DNA from: a virus | IMG/VR virus record: IMGVR_UViG_3300044639_000205 | Location: 1-35,705 of that record | DNA: 35,705 nucleotides | Direction: 5' to 3' (one strand) | Shown: positions 8,349-35,705 of the stretch, piece after piece | Layout of the letters: each line of letters begins with the position of its first letter | How positions within the stretch are numbered: the stretch's first letter is position 1 | Program-made: the position numbers and the translations under genes | Notes under the pieces: generated by a model | The model's database searches: none | What the model was told of the DNA's origin: nothing | What the model saw: only the letters and a program-made list of their open reading frames with translations

Positions 8349-10358
8349 TCACCCACCTTTTCGCACCAGCATGGCGCTCGATTGCACCTCATCCACCACA
8401 ATCCAGCCATGTTCCAGCGGGCTAATGATCTCAGAAACGATGAGCGCACCGATCAATTTATCTGGATATGCTGCGCTCAGATCGTTCTCAATGGTGCGTG
8501 GTTTGCGCCCATCTGAGGCCAGTTTGTCCTTCAATGCTGACCGGCTGATGTAGGGTAAACCATCACGAATTTCAGCGCCAGTACCCCACCAAGCGTTCTC
8601 AAAGGCTTTGCGGTGGCTATCGATCTTGCTGTCTTTTTTGGTGGCGATGGGGGTCTGAGCTTGCACAATGACTGCGCTGGTGACGGGTTGGTTGTCCTCG
8701 TCATACCACGCGGGGATGGTCACTTGCTGGAGTTCTACGAACACGGTTTCGGCCAATTCAGCGTCTTTGGACTTGCGTTGAACGATTTGCATGGGCTGGT
8801 CATCCTTGCTTGGCACTATGCTGATCTCTATGTCCAAAGCGCCCCGCCACGCGCTTGAGCCTCGGGCACGGTGTTGGGCCTCGTCTGACACGCCTGTGTG
8901 GTGGACAAGAATCACTGAGCAGTCAAACTCCGTCATCAGGCTGGAGCAAGCGTCTAGCATGGTCTTGGCGTCTTGGGCGCTGTTCTCGTCTCCGGCCAAG
9001 AAGCGGTGCAGGGTATCAACCACTATCACGCTTGGCCTATCCTTGAGCATCCTGACCTGCTCTACCACCTTGAGGTAGCCGATGGGGGTGTTCAAGTCGC
9101 AACCGTCCTTGGAGAGCCACATATTGAGCTTTCCGGCTTGGTTATGGTGTTTCCACGCTGCTACCCTGCCGCGCAGGCCGTGGTGGCCTTCACCGGCCAG
9201 ATAAACCACATTGCCTTGGCGTACCTTGTGGCCTGCCCAGATTTCAATGCCGCTTGCCATGCGTAGGCACCAATCCAGCACCACAAAGGTCTTGCCACCG
9301 CCTGACGGGCCGTGAACCATGACTAAGGCTTGGGACTGAATCCAACGCTTGACCAGCCATGAAATGGGGCTGGGTTGGGCTGAAAACTCGTCTGCGGGGA
9401 TGAGCCAGTCATTTGCTGGTGGCATGAGCAGTGCGGCCAAATTGTGCCCCGCTTGGGCATAATCGTTGGCATCACCGAGAATCGGGGGCATCACCATGCG
9501 TGCGCCGTACTTGGCTGATGCTTGTTCTGCATAACGTTGACCAACGCCCGATTGGTCATGGTCAGCCACAATCACAATATCTTGCATAATGCCGTGCTTT
9601 TCTCGCAAACTGCCGGTCACAGGCACCAAGTTGCTGGCGCTGTAGGCCACTACGCAGGGGCGGTTGGTGGCCTCAAAAATGGTGGCAGCGGTGGCAAAGC
9701 CTTCGGCCACGTACAGCGTGCCAGGCTCATCTGATGAGCCTACCACCCAGAACTTGCCGCCGGTCTGCCCACCAGCGTGGTACAGCTTGCCGCCTTCGTG
9801 GTCAATGTATTGCAAGCTAGACAATGTGCCGTCTGCATCGTACAGCGGAACTACCAAGCGGCCGTCACCTGTGGCTCGGGCACCATGCACGCCAATGCCC
9901 TTTTTGGCTAGGTAGGGGTGATCGGGGAGCGCTGCCTGTGCGCCTGTCCATATCTTTTCAACTGTCTCGCTAGCGACCTGATGTTGGCGCTCAATGGCTG
10001 CGTCCCGCAGGGCTTTGGCCTCAGCCAAACGCTTGGCGTTGGACATTTCCTCAGTCTGGCTTAGTTTTCGGCCAATGTCAGCCCGAAAAGTAAATTCAAG
10101 ACCTGCACGCCAACACCCAAACCGGCCAGCGGGGATGCCATCACCAAAGACCAAGTACCAGCCAGGCTTGTCACCGTGGCCTGGTGAGCCTTTTGTCCCT
10201 GAGCGAAAACGGTGAATCTTGCCATCAAAGTGAATTTCCTCCGGCGGCTCCAGCCCCGCAGCTCGCATGGCGTCTATAAGTTGCGCTTCAGGGGGAGCGA
10301 CTAGCTTTTCTGGGGACGGTGACCACGGGCCACCGAGGACATTTTCTAGACTAGCCAT
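8349..10358 (-). CDS. Toprim primase with RepA-type helicase domain
   Basis: A 669-residue bifunctional replication protein. Order: an N-terminal region with DGKIHRFRSGTKGSPGHG (about 45-60) and no CxxC zinc ribbon; a DUF7146-like segment DHPYLAKKGIGVHGARATG (146-164) leading to RLVVPLYDADG; a Toprim domain with YVAEGFATA (E219) and IVIVADHDQSG (D266, D268); then a RecA-fold AAA_25 helicase with Walker A GPSGGGKT (350-357), Walker B VIVVD (444-448) and LVHHTG (485-490). A winged-helix-like tail follows. It should make primers and unwind DNA for host polymerase, as no phage polymerase is seen. Its ATG overlaps the last 8 bases of the repressor-like gene, so both come from the leftward promoter. 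Confidence 0.9.
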   Translation of the reverse strand: MASLENVLGGPWSPSPEKLVAPPEAQLIDAMRAAGLEPPEEIHFDGKIHRFRSGTKGSPGHGDKPGWYLVFGDGIPAGRFGCWRAGLEFTFRADIGRKLSQTEEMSNAKRLAEAKALRDAAIERQHQVASETVEKIWTGAQAALPDHPYLAKKGIGVHGARATGDGRLVVPLYDADGTLSSLQYIDHEGGKLYHAGGQTGGKFWVVGSSDEPGTLYVAEGFATAATIFEATNRPCVVAYSASNLVPVTGSLREKHGIMQDIVIVADHDQSGVGQRYAEQASAKYGARMVMPPILGDANDYAQAGHNLAALLMPPANDWLIPADEFSAQPSPISWLVKRWIQSQALVMVHGPSGGGKTFVVLDWCLRMASGIEIWAGHKVRQGNVVYLAGEGHHGLRGRVAAWKHHNQAGKLNMWLSKDGCDLNTPIGYLKVVEQVRMLKDRPSVIVVDTLHRFLAGDENSAQDAKTMLDACSSLMTEFDCSVILVHHTGVSDEAQHRARGSSAWRGALDIEISIVPSKDDQPMQIVQRKSKDAELAETVFVELQQVTIPAWYDEDNQPVTSAVIVQAQTPIATKKDSKIDSHRKAFENAWWGTGAEIRDGLPYISRSALKDKLASDGRKPRTIENDLSAAYPDKLIGALIVSEIISPLEHGWIVVDEVQSSAMLVRKGG

Positions 10359-10533
10359 GCGTCACCGCCTGCTTTGTCAGGTAATCGCTTAAAGCCTTGA
10401 CCGTTTCGTACAAAGGCTTGGACTCCTCTTGCATGAAGCGATAAACCGTGGCCGGATGCACGCCTGCATTCTCTGCCACCCTCTTGAGATTGGCATCTTC
10501 AAGCCGTTGTTTAATCTGCTCAACAGTCATCAT
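10351..10533 (-). CDS. 60-aa helix-turn-helix regulator (Cro/Arc-sized)
   Basis: A compact DNA-binding protein starting MMTVEQIKQRLEDANLKRVA. Helix-turn-helix spans about residues 16-37, with VAENAGVHPATVYRFMQEE matching the xxxAxxxGVxxxTVxRxxx pattern. I use the ATG at 10533 because an AGGTG ribosome site precedes it and because longer versions would run through the promoter palindrome. It is the first gene leftward of the symmetric operator at 10566-10605, so it most likely binds there and balances leftward and rightward transcription. No large CI-type repressor or protease domain is present. Autoregulation is inference from position. Confidence 0.85.
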   Translation of the reverse strand: MMTVEQIKQRLEDANLKRVAENAGVHPATVYRFMQEESKPLYETVKALSDYLTKQAVTHG

Positions 10534-10568
10534 AATTTGCACCTGTGAAAATAATTTTGCGGGAACGC

Positions 10569-10598
10569 TTGCATCATAGCCTGTTTTATGTTTATGAT
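10569..10598 (+). promoter_or_regulatory. Candidate rightward early promoter
   Basis: TTGCAT (10569-10574), an 18-base spacer and TATGAT (10593-10598) resemble sigma70 -35 and -10 boxes, the -10 matching five of six. The predicted leader to the ATG at 10653 is about 48 bases and contains AAGGAG. The -35 lies in the left palindrome arm and the -10 in the right. Confidence 0.6.
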
Positions 10599-10602
10599 GC
10601 AA
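10573..10602 (-). promoter_or_regulatory. Candidate leftward promoter, mirror image of the rightward one
   Basis: By the symmetry of the palindrome the minus strand has the same TTGCAT, 18-base spacer, TATGAT arrangement. Each promoter's -35 overlaps the other's -10, so RNA polymerase cannot occupy both at once. The leader to the regulator ATG at 10533 is about 33 bases. Confidence 0.6.
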
Positions 10603-10652
10603 GCGCACCCAGAACAGATTTCCTGAAGTGGGTGAAATTAAGGAGAGCCAAG

Positions 10653-11330
10653 ATGGCTATCAATCTGAAGTCAACAGGTGGTCTAACCGCCAATGGAGTG
10701 AAGTTGTTGGTGTACGGCGCAGCAGGGTCAGGCAAGACCACGCTGATCAAAACGCTGCCCAATGTGATCGTGCTGAGTGCCGAAGGCGGCTTGCTGTCCA
10801 TTCAAGACGCTGATCTGCCCTACATTGAGATTGCGTCAATGGAGGACTTGCGCGAGGCGTTCACATGGTGCAAGGACAGCAAGGAGGCATCGGGCTTTCA
10901 ATCGGTGGCGCTGGACTCAATCAGCGAAGTGGCTGAGGTGGTGCTGGCCTTTGAGATGAAAAAGTCCAAAGATGGCCGCGCAGCCTACGGTGAGATGAAC
11001 ACCACCATGCAAGAGTTAATCCGCGCCTTTCGTGATTTGCCAGGCAAGCATGTTTACATGAGCGCCAAGCTAGAGAAGTCTACGGACGAGATGGGCAAGA
11101 TGCTTTACAACCCTGGCATGCCGGGCAAGAGCTTGACGCAGGGTCTGCCTTATTTCTTTGACGAAGTGTTGGCACTGCGTGTAGAGCGCGATGGCGAGGG
11201 CGTGACGCAGCGTGCGCTGATGTGCGATAGCGATGGCCTGTGGTTGGCAAAGGACAGGTCGGGCAAGCTGGAGGCATGGGAAGCACCAGACCTTGGTGCC
11301 ATCATTGAAAAGATCGGGGGCAAGGCATGA
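10653..11330 (+). CDS. Sak4-like RecA-fold ATPase (AAA_24)
   Basis: A 225-residue phage nucleotide-binding protein. Walker A is YGAAGSGKTTLIKTL (21-35), followed by VIVLSAEGGLLSI (38-50). Walker B is FQSVALDSIS with D88, and a conserved MNTTMQELIRAF helix comes later. Such AAA_24 proteins include Sak4 single-strand-annealing recombinases, which pair DNA with help from an SSB. The DUF669 SSB-like gene four genes downstream supports that call. The start at 10653 has AAGGAG at 10641-10645 and conserved MAINLKSTGG; an in-frame ATG at 10545 would cross the promoter and is rejected. Its stop overlaps the next start as ATGA. First gene of the rightward unit, so expressed early. Confidence 0.9.
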   Translation: MAINLKSTGGLTANGVKLLVYGAAGSGKTTLIKTLPNVIVLSAEGGLLSIQDADLPYIEIASMEDLREAFTWCKDSKEASGFQSVALDSISEVAEVVLAFEMKKSKDGRAAYGEMNTTMQELIRAFRDLPGKHVYMSAKLEKSTDEMGKMLYNPGMPGKSLTQGLPYFFDEVLALRVERDGEGVTQRALMCDSDGLWLAKDRSGKLEAWEAPDLGAIIEKIGGKA

Positions 11331-11518
11331 ACGATCAAGCATTCCCAGTTAGCTACAACGGCCACGAGGGCATGACCTTGCGGGACTACTTTGCTGCTAA
11401 GGCCATGCAAGTGTTGATTGCAAAAATGATCAGTGAAGATTTTGATTTCATTCAAGAAGATGTTGCTATGGGGTCTTACCACATGGCTGACGCAATGTTG
11501 AAGGAGCGTAACGAATGA
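11327..11518 (+). CDS. 63-aa phage protein, unknown function
   Basis: Begins MNDQAFPVSYNGHEGMTLRD and continues YFAAKAMQVLIAKM. I recognise the (M/L)(N/T)(D/Q)..FP......GMTLRDYFAAKAM pattern as a very common small early protein of phages and prophages whose role is undefined. It is coupled to the Sak4-like gene and to the next gene by ATGA overlaps. Soluble, with a helical second half. Its constant association with recombination genes suggests an accessory role, which is inference. Confidence 0.85.
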   Translation: MNDQAFPVSYNGHEGMTLRDYFAAKAMQVLIAKMISEDFDFIQEDVAMGSYHMADAMLKERNE

Positions 11519-11715
11519 GCGATGACGAAATCATTACTAAATTTATTGATGCTCACCATTTGGTGATTACAACAAAAAACAAAGTTATTGAAGCAAGAAA
11601 AATGCTTCGCATTGCAATCCAAGATGCAGACGCTGCGATTGAAGATACAGCGGATGCAGATTTTTGTTATCGAGAATTAATTAAGAAACGAGAGGCGGCT
11701 AAAAATGCAACTTGA
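11515..11715 (+). CDS. 66-aa helical protein, unknown function
   Basis: Starts MSDDEIITKFIDAHHLVITT and is predicted almost wholly helical, with heptad-like hydrophobics from KNKVIEARKMLRIAIQDADA to the end, so a coiled coil is likely. ATGA overlaps the gene upstream and it overlaps the next start by 11 bases. It is visibly more A/T-rich than its neighbours. No family recognised. Confidence 0.75.
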   Translation: MSDDEIITKFIDAHHLVITTKNKVIEARKMLRIAIQDADAAIEDTADADFCYRELIKKREAAKNAT

Positions 11716-12088
11716 AACCCTAAGCGCAGATTGGTTGCGCTACAAAACCCTTGAGGAGCGCACGGTAGTCGAGCGCCGCAAGATTGAAGACCAGATTGTC
11801 AAAGCCCTGCGCTTGCCTGATGCCTTTGAGTCCACTGAGACAGCAGAGCCAGATGGCTATGTGGTCAAAATCTCAGGCCGCATTGACCGCAAGGTTGATT
11901 CGGAGAAGTTGCAGATGCTGGCTACCGAGTCAGGACTCACCGAGCATTTGGCGACATTGTTTCGCTGGAAACCAGAGCTAAACCTCACGCTCTGGAAATC
12001 AGCAGACGAATCCATCACCAAGCATCTCGCTGGTGCAATCACGGCCAAGCCTGGCCGCCCCTCTTTCAAAATCACCATCAAGGAATAA
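11705..12088 (+). CDS. 127-aa protein of the Sak4/DUF669 module
   Basis: Starts MQLETLSADWLRYKTLEERT. An N-terminal helical part (VERRKIEDQIVKALRL, about 24-39) is followed by a beta-rich part, GYVVKISGRIDRKVDSEKLQ, and a C-terminal GRPSFKITIKE. Genes of this look often sit directly before DUF669 proteins in phage recombination operons, but I know no biochemical role. The first domain resembles small nucleic-acid-binding helices; it could be an accessory or loading factor for the SSB-like protein six bases downstream. Confidence 0.78.
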   Translation: MQLETLSADWLRYKTLEERTVVERRKIEDQIVKALRLPDAFESTETAEPDGYVVKISGRIDRKVDSEKLQMLATESGLTEHLATLFRWKPELNLTLWKSADESITKHLAGAITAKPGRPSFKITIKE

Positions 12089-12093
12089 ATATC

Positions 12094-12582
12094 ATGGCTT
12101 TTCTCACCGAGACTTTTGACGTTAACGAGTTGCCACAAGGCAAGGCTAACAACTTTGAGCCGTTGCCTGCTGGCTGGTACACGGCTACTATCTCGCAGGC
12201 TGAACTTAAAGCTACTAAGGCCAACAACGGCCAGTACATCAAACTGCGCTTTGACATCACCGGCCCGAGCCACCAAGGTCGTGTCGTGTTTGGCAACTTG
12301 AACATCAAGAACGCCAACCCAAAGGCCGAGGAGATCGGACGCCAACAGTTGGGCGAGATTATGCGTGCGATTGGCTTGGCAAAGGTGGCTGACACTGATC
12401 AATTAATTGGCGGTCAGATCAGCATCAAGTTGACTGTCAAAGATGACGCGCAATATGGTGCTAGCAACGAAATCAAGGGATTTAATTCTTTGACTGGTAG
12501 CGTAGCGCCTATCGTTACAGCAGCACCAGCTTCTGCGCCAGCAGCCACTGCCAAGGCTGCACCACCTTGGGCTAAAAAGTAA
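12094..12582 (+). CDS. DUF669 single-strand-binding-like protein
   Basis: A 162-residue protein with the DUF669 pattern: FEPLPAGWYTATISQAELKA (27-46), NGQYIKLRFDITG, VVFGNLNIKNANPKAEEIGR, and a QLGEIMRAIGL helix. The family is considered a phage SSB functioning with annealing recombinases. The core looks like an OB-type beta barrel. The last 25 residues are alanine/proline-rich and end PPWAKK, like the flexible acidic-tipped tails of SSBs though lacking the acidic tip. AAGGA precedes the ATG. A hairpin follows directly after the stop. Confidence 0.88.
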   Translation: MAFLTETFDVNELPQGKANNFEPLPAGWYTATISQAELKATKANNGQYIKLRFDITGPSHQGRVVFGNLNIKNANPKAEEIGRQQLGEIMRAIGLAKVADTDQLIGGQISIKLTVKDDAQYGASNEIKGFNSLTGSVAPIVTAAPASAPAATAKAAPPWAKK

Positions 12583-12584
12583 GC

Positions 12585-12616
12585 AAAAAAAAGCCCCGAC
12601 TGGTTAAGGTCGGGGC
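12585..12616 (-). terminator. Intrinsic terminator facing leftward inside the rightward unit
   Basis: GCCCCGAC (12593-12600) and GTCGGGGC (12609-12616) form a perfect 8-bp stem with an 8-base loop. The eight A at 12585-12592 become a U-tract only on the minus strand. On the plus strand the stem is followed by AAATATC, which is not a terminator tail. It would stop antisense RNA entering from the convergent late unit. On the plus-strand message it could act as a 3' stabiliser between DUF669 and the nuclease gene. Confidence 0.8.
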
Positions 12617-12640
12617 AAATATCAATCAAGGAGAGAACAA

Positions 12641-13666
12641 GTGATTATTCCCCAACCAGATAATACCATTGCCGCCCTAGTTGACAAGCACCACGAGTCA
12701 AAGTCAGAAAAGCCAAGGCCGCACCTTGGGGCTAGCACGCTAGGCCATGTCTGTGACCGCTGGCTGTGGTTGTCGTTCCGGTGGGCGGTGCAGCCTGAGT
12801 TCTCTGGCCGCATCTTGCGCTTGTTCCGTAGGGGGCAGAACGAGGAGGCCACCATCATCAGCGACTTGCGTGCGATTGGGCTGGATGTACGCAAGGTGTC
12901 TGCACAGCATCGGGTTGATTTTGGAGGCCATGTCTCTGGCAGCTTGGACGCCATCATTGACAAGGGCGTTCCTGAAGCCCCGAAGGCCAAGCATGTGGCC
13001 GAGTTCAAGACGCACAGCAAGAAGTCATTTGATGCGCTGGTCAAGGATGGCGTGGAGAAGGCCAAGCCTGAGCACTTCACCCAGATGCAGGTGTACATGC
13101 AAGGCACTGGCATTGACCGTGCGCTGTATGTCGCCATCTGCAAGGACGATGACCGCATCCACACCGAGCGCGTGAAGTTTGACAAGGAGGTTTCAGAAAA
13201 AGCGGTGCGCCGAGGTCACTATATTGCACTGGCCGAGCGTATGCCTGAGCCAATTAGTTCAGACCCAAGCTGGTATCAGTGCAAGTTCTGCGATGCGTAC
13301 AAGTTCTGCCACGAAACGAAGACCACCAAGCATGTCAATTGCCGTACCTGTGCCAACGCCACGCCAATGCCTGACTCGACTTGGCACTGCGCTAAGTGGA
13401 ACGATGTGATCCCAGTGGATGCACAGCACAAGGGTTGCGAGTCGCATGTCCTACACCCAGACTTAGTGCCGTGGCAACGCAAGGACGGGCCGGACGAGTG
13501 GACTGCCGTGTACGAGATCAATGGCGTGAACATGGCAAACGGTGACCCAGCGCAAGAGGGCGTCTGGGGTAGCACGGAACTGCTGGCCAATGCCGAGGCT
13601 TGTGCTAGTGGTGATCCTTTGATTGCTGAGATGCGTCAGGTTTGGGATGCAAGGATAGTTGGCTGA
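12641..13666 (+). CDS. Cas4/RecB-like PDDEXK nuclease with cysteine cluster
   Basis: A 341-residue nuclease, started by GTG at 12641 behind AAGGAGAG. The PDDEXK core shows VSGSLDAIID (D103), HVAEFKTHS (E121, K123) and HFTQMQVYMQ (Q148, Q150). C38 before the core and C214, C217 and C223 after it (C-x2-C-x5-C) copy the Fe-S layout of Cas4 and AddB-type nucleases. A second cysteine set follows from C234 (NCRTCANA) to HCAKW and GCESH, a possible zinc ribbon. It probably resects DNA ends to give the Sak4-like protein its single strands. The stop overlaps the helicase start as TGATG. Confidence 0.88.
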   Translation: MIIPQPDNTIAALVDKHHESKSEKPRPHLGASTLGHVCDRWLWLSFRWAVQPEFSGRILRLFRRGQNEEATIISDLRAIGLDVRKVSAQHRVDFGGHVSGSLDAIIDKGVPEAPKAKHVAEFKTHSKKSFDALVKDGVEKAKPEHFTQMQVYMQGTGIDRALYVAICKDDDRIHTERVKFDKEVSEKAVRRGHYIALAERMPEPISSDPSWYQCKFCDAYKFCHETKTTKHVNCRTCANATPMPDSTWHCAKWNDVIPVDAQHKGCESHVLHPDLVPWQRKDGPDEWTAVYEINGVNMANGDPAQEGVWGSTELLANAEACASGDPLIAEMRQVWDARIVG

Positions 13667-15264
13667 TGCTCCGTGACTACCAACAACGCACCATAGACCA
13701 GCTCTACGCATGGTTTGAGGAGGGCGGCAAGGGCAACCCTTGCCTAGTGCTGCCAACGGGATCGGGCAAGAGCCACATTGTGGCGGCGCTGTGCAAGGAC
13801 GCTTTGCAGAACTGGCCTGAGACTCGGGTGCTGATGCTTACCCATGTCAAGGAATTGATTGAGCAGAACGCTGAGAAGATGCGCCAGCACTGGCCTGGCG
13901 CTCCGATGGGCATTTACAGCGCCAGCATTGGCCGCAAGGATTTGGGTGAGCCGATCACCTTTGCTGGCATCCAGTCTGTACGGACGAAAGCCAAGCAGCT
14001 AGGCCACACCGATCTGGTGATTATTGACGAGTGCCACTTGGTCAACCACAAAGACGAGGGCGGCTACCGCACGTTGCTGGAGCAGCTTAAGGCCATCAAC
14101 CCTGAGTTGCGGGTGGTGGGCTTGACGGCCACGCCTTACCGTCTGGGGCATGGCCTGATCACTGACAAGCCAGCGCTGTTTGATGCGCTGATTAATCCTA
14201 TCAGCATCGAGGAGTTGATTTACAAAGGCTATCTGTCAACCCTGCGTTCCAAAACCACCAAGGCCAAACTGGATGTGACTGGCGTGCATAAGCGTGGCGG
14301 CGAGTTCATTGAGTCTGAGTTGCAAGCTGCGGTGGACACCGACGATCAGAACCAGAAGGTGGTGCGCGAGGTGGTTGGCTTGGCTGGTGACCGCAAGGCG
14401 TGGCTAGTGTTTTGCGCTGGTGTAAAACATGCACAGCACATTGCAGAAGTCTTGCGCCAGCATGGCGTGGCTGCTGAGTGCGTGACGGGTGAGACGCCAA
14501 AGAAGGAGCGCGAGAAAATGCTAGCCGACTTCAAGGCTGGCCGCTTGCGTGCGCTTACCAACGCCAATGTGCTGACCACCGGCTTTGACTACCCCGACAT
14601 TGACCTGATCGCCATGCTGCGCCCGACCATGAGCGCTAGTTTGTATGTCCAGATGGCTGGCCGCGGGATGCGGGTCAAGAGCCACACCGATCACTGCTTG
14701 GTGCTGGACTTTGCTGGCGTGGTGTCTACGCACGGCCCGATTACTGCTGTCCAGCCCCCAAAAAAGGGCGGCGATGGTAATGGCGAAGCACCAGTCAAGG
14801 TCTGCGACGAATGCGGTGAGCTGTGCGCCATATCAACGTCTGTTTGCCCTGCTTGCGGGAATGCATTTCCAGCCCCAGAGCCAAAGAAACTCAAACTGCA
14901 TGACGATGACATCATGGGGCTTGATGGCACCGATCTGGATGTGACAAGCTGGACATGGCGCAAGCACATCAGCAAGGCATCAGGCAAAGAAATGCTGGCG
15001 GTGACTTACTACGGGGGCTTGAGTGACCCAGCCATTACAGAGTACCTAGCCGTTACGCATGACGGGTACGCTGGTCAGATGGCTTTGCAAAAGCTCGTAG
15101 ATATAGCAGAACAAGCTCAGATCGAGCGTGGTGGCCTTAACGTGAAGTCGTTGGAGGAGATGGCCCAGAACATGAACCAAGCGCAGCCACCAATTCATAT
15201 TGAGTTCAAGCGCGATGGCAAATTTTTTAGAGTAATGAGAAGGAGATGGTATGAGACACCCTGA
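13666..15264 (+). CDS. SF2 DNA helicase with zinc ribbon
   Basis: A 532-residue helicase starting MLRDYQQRTIDQLYAWFEEG at the TGATG overlap. Motifs: LPTGSGKS (29-36), MLTHVKEL (57-64), DECH (121-124), GLTATPYR (152-159), VFCAGVKHA (248-256), TTGFDYPDIDLI (304-315) and QMAGRGMR (329-336). This is the RadD/YejH-like branch of DEAD/DEAH helicases. C380-x2-C383 and C394-x2-C397 form a zinc ribbon, followed by a roughly 130-residue domain seen in phage homologues. It follows the nuclease directly, so a helicase-nuclease pair in end processing or fork repair is likely, by analogy with RecBCD/AddAB. Confidence 0.92.
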   Translation: MLRDYQQRTIDQLYAWFEEGGKGNPCLVLPTGSGKSHIVAALCKDALQNWPETRVLMLTHVKELIEQNAEKMRQHWPGAPMGIYSASIGRKDLGEPITFAGIQSVRTKAKQLGHTDLVIIDECHLVNHKDEGGYRTLLEQLKAINPELRVVGLTATPYRLGHGLITDKPALFDALINPISIEELIYKGYLSTLRSKTTKAKLDVTGVHKRGGEFIESELQAAVDTDDQNQKVVREVVGLAGDRKAWLVFCAGVKHAQHIAEVLRQHGVAAECVTGETPKKEREKMLADFKAGRLRALTNANVLTTGFDYPDIDLIAMLRPTMSASLYVQMAGRGMRVKSHTDHCLVLDFAGVVSTHGPITAVQPPKKGGDGNGEAPVKVCDECGELCAISTSVCPACGNAFPAPEPKKLKLHDDDIMGLDGTDLDVTSWTWRKHISKASGKEMLAVTYYGGLSDPAITEYLAVTHDGYAGQMALQKLVDIAEQAQIERGGLNVKSLEEMAQNMNQAQPPIHIEFKRDGKFFRVMRRRWYETP

Positions 15265-15442
15265 ACCGGATTTGGTAACTGACTACAAGCGCTGGTTTGC
15301 CGCTGGCCCACCGAGGTGCTGCCACACCTGTGAGCATTACGGCGTGGATGGCCTGTGCGTTGAGTTTTTTATGCAGCCGCCAGCAGAGTTCGCCAGCACG
15401 GTGGGCGAGTGCGCCAAGTGGGAGGCCGAATGCCCGTTCTAG
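15251..15442 (+). CDS. 63-aa Cys-rich mini-protein
   Basis: AAGGAG at 15240-15245 precedes this ATG, which overlaps the helicase end by 14 bases. The order CCHTCEHYGVDGLC then GECAKWEAEC gives seven cysteines and a likely zinc site. The spacing C-x2-C, about ten residues, C, about fifteen residues, C-A-K-W is similar to the C-terminal cysteine module of the Cas4-like nuclease encoded upstream (CRTCANA to HCAKW). It may be a stand-alone version of that module. No family name recognised. Confidence 0.82.
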   Translation: MRHPEPDLVTDYKRWFAAGPPRCCHTCEHYGVDGLCVEFFMQPPAEFASTVGECAKWEAECPF

Positions 15443-15780
15443 GCCGCATACCCACCGAGCATGAAGAACAACGCGAGTTCGTGCGCTGGTTTCGCCAAGG
15501 CTACAAGGGCGTGCGTATTTTTGCTGTGCCAAATGGCGGGGCCAGAAGCATGGCGACAGCAGGGCGCTTGAAGGTCGAGGGCGTATCGCCTGGCGTGCCT
15601 GACCTGTTCATTCCAGACTGGCGCTTGTGGGTGGAGATGAAACGAGTCAAGGGCGGCAGTCTCAGCGCCGAGCAGAAGGACTGGATTGCCTATCTGGAGG
15701 GCTGTGGCTACACCTGTTTTGTGGCAAAGGGGGCTGATCAGGCTAAAAAGATGGTGTTAGGGTTTGTCCTGATTAAATAG
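15430..15780 (+). CDS. VRR-NUC domain nuclease
   Basis: A 116-residue minimal VRR-NUC protein, the virus-type replication-repair nuclease of the PD-(D/E)XK fold related to FAN1 and known in phages as a structure-specific resolvase-like enzyme. Visible: EEQREFVRWFRQ helix, AVPNGGARS (32-40), GVSPGVPDLFI with D58, VEMKR with E69 and K71, and EQKDWIAYLEGCGY with Q82. I start at ATG 15430, which overlaps the Cys-rich gene by 13 bases; seven further upstream codons are dispensable. A role resolving branched recombination intermediates fits its place. Confidence 0.93.
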   Translation: MPVLGRIPTEHEEQREFVRWFRQGYKGVRIFAVPNGGARSMATAGRLKVEGVSPGVPDLFIPDWRLWVEMKRVKGGSLSAEQKDWIAYLEGCGYTCFVAKGADQAKKMVLGFVLIK

Positions 15781-15810
15781 TTGTTGCGTTACCGGAAACA
15801 GTGTTATAGT
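15781..15810 (+). promoter_or_regulatory. Possible internal promoter for the small-gene run
   Basis: TTGTTG (15781-15786) and TATAGT (15805-15810) are 18 bases apart in the only rightward gap of more than 50 bp besides the one at 12.6 kb. The next gene has AGGAG six bases before its ATG. The -35 is poor, so this is a weak call. Confidence 0.35.
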
Positions 15811-15836
15811 AGAGACATCAACAACAGGAGAGCAAC

Positions 15837-16055
15837 ATGACAACAACAGACATCACTTGGTTTGAATATGAATTAGTTGGCCCAATCGAGACTTTTAAAT
15901 ATCGGACTAATGCTGATACAAGCATTGTTCAGTATTGGTCTGACAAAAAAGTGCCAGGCTTTTCAAAGATTGGCTGGAACAGAACTAAACATATTCACGC
16001 TGAAATTTGTGCGGCTAACGCATTAAAGGCAGCCAAAGCTGCCGGAAAAATATGA
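15837..16055 (+). CDS. 72-aa protein, unknown
   Basis: Starts MTTTDITWFEYELVGPIETF with AGGAG upstream. Beta-type first half with several aromatics, then IGWNRTKHIHAEICAANALK and an alanine/lysine tail. Slightly A/T-richer than the enzymes before it. No family recognised. Its stop overlaps the next start as ATGA, marking the start of a chain of small coupled genes. Confidence 0.72.
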   Translation: MTTTDITWFEYELVGPIETFKYRTNADTSIVQYWSDKKVPGFSKIGWNRTKHIHAEICAANALKAAKAAGKI

Positions 16056-16195
16056 CCCCCACCCAACGAGTCCAAGCCCTACGCCAACGCCGAAAGGCGC
16101 TTGGCCTAACCAGAGTTGAGTTCTATCTCACCCAAGAACACGCCGCCAAAGTGCGTGGATATGTCAGTAAATTAACCAAGGAAAAAACAAAATGA
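16052..16195 (+). CDS. 47-aa basic protein, ribbon-helix-helix-like
   Basis: ATGA overlaps at both ends support translation. It reads MTPTQRVQALRQRRKALGLT, then RVEFYLTQEHAAKVRGYVSK and a lysine-rich end. The (K/R)ALGL.R.E.Y(L/V)...H...(V/I)..Y pattern looks like the short DNA-binding ribbon-helix-helix proteins that phages and plasmids use as repressors; the RVEFYL strand would contact the major groove. A regulatory role is inference from this resemblance. Confidence 0.75.
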   Translation: MTPTQRVQALRQRRKALGLTRVEFYLTQEHAAKVRGYVSKLTKEKTK

Positions 16196-16326
16196 AACAG
16201 ACCTACTTTACTCAGCAGAACATGGATCAGGCCCGATGCTCATTGATGAGCGTGATTGGCGCAGTCGTTCTTGTCGGCTCAGGCGTTGTCCTGATGCTGG
16301 CTTACTTTGATGTCCTTGTGAAGTAA
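16192..16326 (+). CDS. 44-aa single-pass membrane protein
   Basis: After a polar N-terminus MKQTYFTQQNMDQARCSLMS comes one hydrophobic helix of about 20 residues (VIGAVVLVGSGVVLMLAYF, 21-39) and a short VLVK end. ATGA-coupled to the 47-aa gene. Early expression of a tiny inner-membrane protein suggests interference with host envelope or superinfection exclusion, but nothing specific is visible. Confidence 0.75.
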   Translation: MKQTYFTQQNMDQARCSLMSVIGAVVLVGSGVVLMLAYFDVLVK

Positions 16327-16334
16327 GGCACACC

Positions 16335-16526
16335 ATGAACATACGAGACATCTTCAAAGTGATCACGCCAGCCCAAGCCATTGCCGCCGAACTGGCCGAA
16401 GCCGAACACGCTTTGCTGCGGGCTGAGACTGGCGTGGAGTACGCGCAGGCACTGGTGACCTACAACAAGAACCGCGTCAAGCGCCTCAAGGCGTACCAGA
16501 CGCCAGTTGAGGAGAAGACAGCATGA
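16335..16526 (+). CDS. 63-aa helical protein, unknown
   Basis: Starts MNIRDIFKVITPAQAIAAEL behind TAAGG. A continuous amphipathic helix (AEAEHALLRAETGVEYAQAL, about 21-40) with heptad spacing suggests a coiled-coil dimer, ending in a basic NKNRVKRLKAY stretch. I associate this with small DUF-type phage proteins of unknown role. ATGA overlap with the next gene. Confidence 0.78.
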   Translation: MNIRDIFKVITPAQAIAAELAEAEHALLRAETGVEYAQALVTYNKNRVKRLKAYQTPVEEKTA

Positions 16527-16777
16527 CGCGCCGCTATTGCGATACAGGCAGGGTTGACTGCCCACATCTGCCTGAGTGTGTATGGGAATGTCACTATGAC
16601 AACGCTGAAGTCCGTAAGATCAAGCCCTACCCTGCGATATTTGTTGACATTGAGCCTGTGCCGGACACATGGCACACGGTTGGGACGGTGATGCTGACCG
16701 CCATCTTTGCAGCATTGGCCGTGGTCTGCATCCTAATCTTCTTCACCGGCGTCTGGGTTTGGAGCTTACTGATATGA
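16523..16777 (+). CDS. 84-aa Cys-containing membrane protein
   Basis: N-terminal cysteine-rich soluble part (CDTGRVDCPHLPECVWECH, 6-24) and one C-terminal membrane helix (GTVMLTAIFAALAVVCILIF, about 54-73). Four cysteines in 18 residues could hold a metal or, if periplasmic, disulfides. No signal peptide precedes them, so a cytoplasmic N-terminus with a tail anchor is likelier. Coupled by ATGA to genes on both sides. Function unknown. Confidence 0.75.
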   Translation: MTRRYCDTGRVDCPHLPECVWECHYDNAEVRKIKPYPAIFVDIEPVPDTWHTVGTVMLTAIFAALAVVCILIFFTGVWVWSLLI

Positions 16778-17406
16778 GCTACATCATTGCATCACTGCCG
16801 CCAATCAAGTGCTTTGTCAAGCGCGAGTTCTTGTACAACTTCACCAAGGGCCACAACGAGTTAGAGCCTGCCATTTGGGTCAGCCTAAAAGCGCTGCGCG
16901 GTCAAGTGTTCCGGATAGAGTCGCTGTTGCCGGCCTACGGTGCGCTTTACGACAAGCTGCCCATCCATGCGTATGTTTGGCGCCCAGAGGCTGGAGATTT
17001 GCCCGTTGACACGCTTCAGCTATGGGACTGCATGGGCTATCGGTTCACCATCGTAGAAAAGATCGGCCTACGCAACCTTGGCGTGAAGTTTTTGGGTAAG
17101 GACAAGCAGTGGCACTTTGGGCGCTACATGTTTACCGTAGACTTCTGCGCTGATGAGATGGCGCTAGACACCGGCTTCACAGAGCAGGCAGAGGAACACA
17201 AGTCTTTTAACTGGATCATGTTGGATAACGGCCAGTTTGCTTGCCAGCCCAACAACCGCTGCTTGTGGTACGACCAGAGCCTGATCCCCGCCGAGACAAA
17301 GTTCCCCGACTTCCAAGCGTCTAGATTTTTTTACACCGTTGACGGTACGCGCAAGTGGAGCGCTGGCGATGATTGGTTCTACGACATTCAAGAGAAGAAC
17401 GCATGA
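16774..17406 (+). CDS. 210-aa conserved phage protein, unknown
   Basis: I start at MSYIIASLPPIKCFVKREFL, at the ATGA overlap. Continuing blocks are WVSLKALRGQVFRIESLLP, GALYDKLPIHAYVWRP, VDTLQLWDCMGYRFTIVEK, VKFLGKDKQWHFGRYMFTVD and QFACQPNNRCLWYDQSL. The blocks are familiar from a family of about 200 residues in many temperate and lytic phages, never assigned a function to my knowledge. It is rich in Trp, Tyr and Phe with mixed beta structure. No catalytic motif is evident and no membrane segment. It is the largest gene of the distal early region. Confidence 0.85.
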   Translation: MSYIIASLPPIKCFVKREFLYNFTKGHNELEPAIWVSLKALRGQVFRIESLLPAYGALYDKLPIHAYVWRPEAGDLPVDTLQLWDCMGYRFTIVEKIGLRNLGVKFLGKDKQWHFGRYMFTVDFCADEMALDTGFTEQAEEHKSFNWIMLDNGQFACQPNNRCLWYDQSLIPAETKFPDFQASRFFYTVDGTRKWSAGDDWFYDIQEKNA

Positions 17407-17576
17407 CCCACGGCGGCAAGAGAGCCGGTGCTGGCAGACCACCGAAAGATATTTCGGTTAGCCGAGTCTATTCTTTGTACGATTCCGGCGTAGACATGAA
17501 AGAGATTGCGCGGCGATTTAATGTCAGCGCACCTGTAATTAGCAGACTAATCAAGAAACGAAATGCCAAACTTTAA
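17403..17576 (+). CDS. 57-aa homeodomain-like HTH protein
   Basis: Starts MTHGGKRAGAGRPPKDISVS at the ATGA overlap. The GGKRAGAGRPPK arm is an AT-hook-like minor-groove binder, as seen in front of phage HTH domains. Residues 31-51 (DMKEIARRFNVSAPVISRLI) form a resolvase/homeodomain-type helix-turn-helix. Being at the far end of the early unit, it is a candidate activator of late transcription or a small terminase-like DNA binder. Neither role is shown. Confidence 0.85.
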   Translation: MTHGGKRAGAGRPPKDISVSRVYSLYDSGVDMKEIARRFNVSAPVISRLIKKRNAKL

Positions 17577-17736
17577 AACTTGGACGCAAGAAAACTTAGC
17601 ACAGTTTGCCGAGGAAGCGAACGCAAAGATGATCCAACAAGACGACCGGATTCAGCAGCTTCAATGCGACCTCAAAGACGCCATTGAAGCGTACCGAGCG
17701 CTTATGCGAAAGGCCGAGTTCCCTGCCGGTCGATGA
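17563..17736 (+). CDS. 57-aa helical protein at the convergent junction
   Basis: Overlaps the HTH gene by 14 bases and runs 35 bases into the 3' end of the endolysin gene on the other strand. It reads MPNFKTWTQENLAQFAEEAN followed by KMIQQDDRIQQLQCDLKDAI, a likely coiled coil. I recall similar small proteins in related phages. The last gene of the rightward unit. Confidence 0.75.
   Translation: MPNFKTWTQENLAQFAEEANAKMIQQDDRIQQLQCDLKDAIEAYRALMRKAEFPAGR
17658..17690. repeat. Inverted repeat near the convergent gene ends
   Basis: GCTTCAATG (17658-17666) and CATTGAAGC (17682-17690) pair perfectly over 9 bp with a 15-base loop, 12 bases past the endolysin stop in the leftward direction. It lies inside the 57-aa gene, and neither strand has a U-tract. 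It could slow RNA polymerase from both sides or protect a 3' end. Confidence 0.5.
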
Positions 17737-29764: not shown

Positions 29765-29787
29765 AAAAAACGCCCCCGAAGGGGCAT
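29765..29787 (-). terminator. UUCG-loop terminator behind the coat gene
   Basis: On the minus strand GCCCC-TTCG-GGGGC (5 bp, extended by a G-U and an A-U pair) is followed by G and six T (29770-29765). It starts 6 bases after the coat stop codon. A partial terminator here would raise coat over downstream mRNA; the stable tetraloop also protects the 3' end. Confidence 0.85.
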
Positions 29788-29792
29788 TAGGT

Positions 29793-35449: not shown

Positions 35450-35705
35450 GCTAAGAACCTTAGTTTGTACAGAGTGCGTAGATAAATCTCAACAATATTG
35501 TCAATCAACTGCTGTAAAGATGAGTCTGATTTATCGCAGACATTGTACCGAGCGCCTTCAATTTCAGCCAATGAGTCTTCTAAGAACTCAATGACGTTGC
35601 TGGTCTTCTTTGCCGAATGCAAAGTGATCGGGCCGATCAAGCCGTGACGGCCTTGGTAGGCTTCGGCAAAATCATCAGCCGCACCAACGATGCGGTTATA
35701 AAAAA
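35446..35705 (-). CDS. C-terminal part of the junction-spanning protein
   Basis: The right-hand copy of the gene at 1-300. It enters at the window edge, repeats the frame through the duplicated 197 bases, and adds the final 20 codons LIDNIVEIYLRTLYKLRFLA before TGA at 35448-35446, which overlaps the tailspike ATG as ATGA. The join therefore makes a complete 120-codon gene with no frame change, which confirms the circular reading. Confidence 0.85.
   Translation of the reverse strand, partial: FYNRIVGAADDFAEAYQGRHGLIGPITLHSAKKTSNVIEFLEDSLAEIEGARYNVCDKSDSSLQQLIDNIVEIYLRTLYKLRFLA
35509..35705. repeat. Terminal direct repeat, right copy
   Basis: Matches 1-197 except for A at 35583 where the left copy has G. 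Cutting one copy gives a unique genome of about 35,508 bp. Confidence 0.95.

Follow-up and report, generated by a model that had tools for sequence, protein, structure and literature searches.

Mirrored divergent promoters and a predicted 5'-terminal RNA hairpin at the early operon of a small phage and its relatives

The window (the whole stretch of DNA analysed, 35,705 bases) is a virus record that starts and ends with a near-exact terminal direct repeat (1-197 and 35509-35705, with one mismatch, G at 75 against A at 35583). Since this 197-base repeat is present at both ends the map closes (circular or complete), and the record is apparently a complete genome in which the repeat was left untrimmed. 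Its main genes form two units, which diverge at 10.53-10.65 kb and converge near 17.6-17.7 kb. The leftward unit runs from 10533 to 1 and then across the ends from 35705 to about 17700. Protein scans identify its first gene as a 60-aa HTH_3 protein (10351-10533, minus strand) and its second as a TOPRIM/AAA_25 primase-helicase (8349-10358, minus strand); it further encodes the terminase small subunit, portal, tail spike, scaffold, major head protein, head closure, holin and endolysin. The rightward unit (about 10653 to 17580) opens with a Sak4-like ssDNA annealing ATPase (AAA_24; 10653-11330, plus strand, likewise from protein scans) and contains a DUF669/SSB-like protein, a Cas4-domain exonuclease, a helicase and a resolvase-like protein. 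The first-pass annotation had placed every gene on one of these two units, which holds for the main genes, and had named an HTH protein of 60 residues as the first leftward gene, in agreement with the HTH_3 match. Compared with a temperate-phage switch of the cI/cro type, an HTH_3 gene is present here and no integrase was found among 30 proteins (a subset of the ORFs) scanned against PHROGs. A contig scan for the host matched seven MAG contigs and gave no clear host.

The last large gene of the early unit (16669-17406, plus strand) encodes a 245-aa protein that matches PHROG 3704, annotated as ferredoxin (auxiliary gene). On the minus strand a terminator-like stem, AATGCCCCTTCGGGGGCGTT followed by a T run (29769-29788), lies directly past the major head protein gene of the leftward unit. 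Within the rightward operon, the DUF669/SSB-like gene is separated from the exonuclease gene by a strong intrinsic terminator oriented for leftward transcription (GCCCCGACC...GGTCGGGGC followed by T8; 12585-12616, minus strand). Most of about 90 related loci have this terminator too, with stem letters that differ between loci in a compensating manner. It could keep antisense transcription from running through the early operon, or else form the 3' end of a short leftward RNA, for which a promoter-like TTGTCA-16-TATTAT at 12687-12660 is a possible source.

In the sole divergent gap of this 35.7-kb phage lies a perfect 13-bp inverted repeat, formed by CGCTTGCATCATA (10566-10578) and TATGATGCAAGCG (10593-10605) with 14 bp between the arms. 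Perfect inverted repeats of at least 13 bp with a gap of at most 60 occur once in the window (dinucleotide shuffles average 0.02), and exact occurrences of TTGCATCATA are confined to the two arms, near matches being at chance level. Both strands carry TTGCAT-18-TATGAT at mirror positions. On the plus strand the -35 (TTGCAT) is at 10569-10574 and the -10 (TATGAT, 18-bp spacer) at 10593-10598; on the minus strand the -35 (TTGCAT, which drifts in many relatives) is at 10597-10602 and the -10 (TATGAT, again with an 18-bp spacer) at 10573-10578. Each -10 starts 4 nt inside the -35 of the opposite strand, and the two overlap by 2 bp only. Counting 7 nt from each -10 puts the predicted +1 sites at 10605 (rightward, plus strand) and 10566 (leftward, minus strand), the outermost bases of the palindrome. 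In this arrangement the left arm holds the rightward -35 together with the leftward +1 to -10, and the right arm the rightward -10 to +1 together with the leftward -35. The arms with their coordinates and 14-bp gap, the identical promoter on both strands and the overlap of each -35 with the opposite -10 had all been claimed beforehand, and are confirmed exactly in the sequence.

Given that two copies of one core promoter, with arms reaching from -10 to +1, explain the whole extent of the symmetry, the palindrome is best read as two mirrored, predicted sigma70-type promoters. The -35 is weak; the pair scores below a strict consensus promoter scan, and is absent from its list, because TTGCAT matches the consensus at only 3/6 positions and the spacer is 18 bp. 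Promoter-like matches elsewhere in the window are at shuffle level. For the palindrome Rfam returned microRNA families, at E 0.0005 or worse and far short of the gathering score; these were set aside as symmetry artefacts.

The layout was compared over 144 distinct related loci that keep primase, HTH and Sak4 in place. For each locus the best rightward and the best leftward promoter were scored independently, with dinucleotide shuffles as control. The mirrored overlap is found in 109 of the 144 loci against 104 of 2880 shuffles (3.6%), counts that overstate independence as many loci are closely related, and the named phages span several host groups. The offset between -35 and -10 is 4 in the window and 4-6 in the 109 loci; the remaining 35 have their two best promoters in another arrangement or lack a good leftward one. 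The same mirrored layout recurs in different letters in phages of quite different hosts, namely 1N2-2 (TTGACA-17-TAGATT / TTGACT-17-TATGAT), PB15 (TTGACT-17-TATATT / TTGACT-17-TAGTAT), CGphi29, XX1924, RHEph05 and Erebus. Of these, PB15 and XX1924 are Alteromonas phages, CGphi29 is a Salicola phage and 1N2-2 an Idiomarinaceae phage. The layout was not seen in Stenotrophomonas and Moraxella phages whose divergent gap is likewise followed by a related Sak4 gene, and it is therefore not forced by gene order. The first-pass annotation had made conservation in related phages a check on its proposal. The palindrome as such does not pass, as it is exact in only 15 IMG/VR contigs and its arms drift; the promoter pair does, and this comparison across varied hosts makes it very probable that the mirrored divergent pair, predicted to be mutually exclusive, is real.

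Two further observations concern the relatives. In some of them, unrelated HTH/Cro-like genes stand where the window has its small HTH gene, between primase and promoter, and both neighbours are kept. In the rhizobial phages RHEph05 and Erebus the mirrored promoters (TTGACA...TGTCAA, at L391:390-423 and L396:1231-1264) occur without an HTH gene, and Erebus has only a simple short hairpin past the promoter.

It might be argued that the palindrome is primarily an operator, on whose arms HTH dimers silence or switch both promoters in a Cro-like manner. The window has its HTH_3 gene first on the leftward side, most relatives have an HTH gene at that place, and the symmetry is exact in close relatives. 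In a cross-dyad test, TTG/CAA is nearly fixed in both arms of the relatives, and most other mirror positions are complementary slightly above the prediction from column composition, a weak covariation. Some extra mirror complementarity just beyond the hexamers (positions -4 and -3) would suit an operator, but it is just here that the mirrored CA initiators and the first base of the hairpin lie. The arms drift even among loci that share an HTH type, and their centres are 27 bp apart, a poor fit to one small dimer. Moreover, the layout survives with unrelated HTH proteins (at least three unrelated types of HTH gene lie between primase and promoter across the relatives) and without any, as in RHEph05 and Erebus, where no such gene lies between primase and promoter. 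Neither the cross-dyad covariation nor the comparison of HTH types supports an operator as the main cause of the palindrome, so that we consider this reading unlikely; the rarity of the exact palindrome likewise speaks against the earlier suggestion that it serves the 60-aa protein. As judged from these comparisons, the symmetry is mainly promoter symmetry and not a demonstrated operator. The 60-aa HTH protein may repress or tune promoter choice, and would not be needed for the layout. That the palindrome arose by chance with promoter-like letters, as the weak -35 and the shuffle-level matches elsewhere could suggest, is scarcely conceivable with 0.02 such repeats expected per window and a layout kept across more than 100 loci.

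Overlapping divergent geometry is already known. In Pr/Pc of the Bacillus plasmid pLS20 each promoter has its -10 at the other's -35 and its -35 at the other's -10, one start lies 6 bp upstream of the other promoter's -35, and a regulator gene stands on one side (PMC4207663). The window is similar in that each -35 overlaps the opposite -10 (offset 4) and in the regulator gene on one side. It differs in that its two promoters mirror each other almost letter for letter and have similar predicted strength, located in a phage and with a layout known from sequence; looping, an activator and a repressor, the points of contrast with pLS20, are not among the features read from the window. In prokaryotic bidirectional promoters the two starts are separated by 7-25 bp and the -10 elements overlap reciprocally (PMC10268837, PMC12825309). 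As in those (Grainger-type) promoters, the symmetry would give divergent transcription from one site at which one polymerase excludes the other. In contrast, the predicted starts at 10566 and 10605 are 39 bp apart, outside the 7-25 bp range, and the -10 elements (10573-10578 and 10593-10598) do not overlap, each -35 overlapping a -10 instead.

Directly past the palindrome, folding and covariation predict a 5'-terminal two-tier RNA hairpin (10606-10634, plus strand) with outer stem CACCCA/TGGGTG, a 3x3 internal loop GAA/AAG, inner stem CAG/CTG and loop ATTTC (-12.6 kcal/mol for the window). RNAalifold finds the hairpin unaided on a MAFFT alignment of 60 leaders, with double changes at 7 of 8 pairs. 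Over these 60 sequences 93% of the cells of the nine-pair structure are paired, double changes occupy 136 cells against 45 in shuffles, and the covariation score reaches 0.636 (0.153 when shuffled, at most 0.117 for slid versions). G-U pairs are tolerated in the stems (for instance CGCCTC/GAGGTG and CTGCGC/GTGCAG), as expected for RNA. The stems vary freely and the loop letters are nearly constant. The internal loop could pair in one of 54 hairpins, which was itself a chance match, where about 31 would be expected if its letters were free; among the other 53 distinct hairpins it contains no Watson-Crick pair (the first mismatch is G.G in 40 and A.A in 7), and the apical loop begins with A (A(A)UU type). 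Neither the window nor 12 related loci matched an Rfam family at gathering score, and a literature search returned neither a described hairpin of this kind nor start-site, binding or decay data for these phages.

The position of the hairpin is equally regular: in 93 of 121 loci it begins at the predicted +2, exactly 7 nt past the -10. In the upstream profile of the hairpins in Sak4-linked relatives the -35 starts with T in 94%, the -10 has T in 88%, A in 97% and a final T in 99%, and a CA initiator stands at -2/-1: the base before the hairpin is A in about 92% (G in the window, at the predicted rightward +1) and the next base upstream is C in 85%. Given this spacing and the initiator, a single unpaired nucleotide is predicted to precede the hairpin in the transcript. 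The stem thereby lies within a few nt of the predicted +1, the position of a 5'-terminal stabilising stem-loop. On the evidence of pairing and position across these loci, we regard it as nearly certain that the predicted hairpin is real and 5'-terminal.

A covariance model search detects one copy in the window and none in the long leftward unit. Weak matches of the model in L286 and at L001:6415 (long loops, no promoter), and those of a loose scan in L054 and L322, were attributed to chance. At loci with other genes before Sak4 the hairpin stays at the operon start, and some phages have two or three copies, located before unrelated small early genes, where each extra copy follows its own TTGACA-like/TANNNT-like promoter. 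Leader control specific to Sak4 was rejected for these reasons. From this distribution, the predicted hairpin is a mark of early promoters, not of the Sak4 gene, and a standard 5' element of early transcripts in the phage group.

Taken together, these data suggest how the locus may work. The 40-bp palindrome would be two complete promoters for the host housekeeping RNA polymerase, facing opposite directions on shared DNA. As each 13-bp arm would serve one promoter from -10 to +1 and the other as -35, two polymerases could not occupy the site together. Each binding event would then pick either the rightward early operon (Sak4, SSB-like protein, exonuclease, helicase) or the leftward unit (HTH and primase, followed by terminase, portal and other virion genes). 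Polymerase competition for one site has been demonstrated at E. coli bidirectional promoters, where one direction was strongly activated (PMC12825309); in the phage we infer exclusion in vivo from the layout. The rightward transcript would start at about 10605 and enter the two-tier hairpin at +2. With its 5' end buried, leaving one unpaired nucleotide, the early mRNA would be shielded from RppH and then from RNase E decay, and the constant internal and apical loops may be read by a protein or by RNA polymerase. We consider this explanation as a whole, with competing mirrored promoters and a protective or recognised 5' hairpin of the early mRNA, to be likely.

For the hairpin, protection is the simplest role because 5'-terminal pairing hinders RppH and RNase E; both need single-stranded 5' ends, and 5'-terminal structure stabilises mRNA (PMC3997798). 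That end protection is a main role seems plausible, if somewhat short of probable. The ompA/papA-type 5'-terminal stabilising stem-loops of E. coli mRNAs (reviewed in PMC3997798) are likewise found at or near the 5' end, upstream of the ribosome-binding site; the phage hairpin resembles them in predicted position and stands apart in having loops that are conserved among many phages and promoters. Protection alone would need no more than a plain stable stem, and the conserved loops argue for recognition instead or besides. Tentatively, hairpins of this kind could form a family of 5'-terminal phage RNA elements, so far undescribed, that begin at +2 of early promoters, are recognised via the 3x3 and A(A)UU loops by RNA polymerase or a dedicated protein, and mark early transcripts for protection, antitermination or timed shut-off.

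Constant loops on freely varying stems, shared by several early genes of one phage, might also point to a binding site for a phage- or host-encoded protein that controls translation or timed decay of early mRNAs. This we find rather doubtful, as the Shine-Dalgarno AAGGAG of the Sak4 gene (10640-10645, plus strand, from sequence and fold) lies outside the hairpin and no candidate partner was identified. A CsrA/RsmA site was rejected: GGA occurs in some hairpin loops but is absent from that of the window. The nearest positional analogy is HK022 putL, a structured RNA with which an early transcript of that phage begins; put RNA measures about 70 nt and folds into two stem-loops (PMC9378689). A put-like antitermination or anti-pausing RNA, acting in cis on RNA polymerase, would be in keeping with the extreme 5' position, the presence at several early promoters within one genome and the conserved internal loops. 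It is nevertheless distinctly unlikely, since the window element is a single hairpin of 29-30 nt with a 3x3 internal loop and does not occur in the long leftward unit, the one with the greatest need for antitermination. Finally, stem complementarity equally gives a DNA dyad, and the gap lies between primase and recombination genes, but an operator or replication origin at the DNA level is very improbable in view of arms that differ widely among loci and tolerate G-U pairs, loops that are asymmetric and constant, and copies exactly 7-8 nt past the -10 elements of several promoters.

The significance of the mirrored promoters and the predicted 5' hairpin is twofold. On this reading a single symmetric site of 40 bp can carry the transcription programme of an entire phage, and its promoter layout persists when the regulator gene beside it is replaced, so that competition between polymerases becomes a candidate for the regulator itself. 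The predicted hairpin adds a strongly covarying RNA element common to a large group of small aquatic phages and present, in some genomes, at several early promoters (up to three copies). An unnamed mark of this kind, common to the start of early phage mRNAs, could reveal how phage transcripts are protected or tagged.
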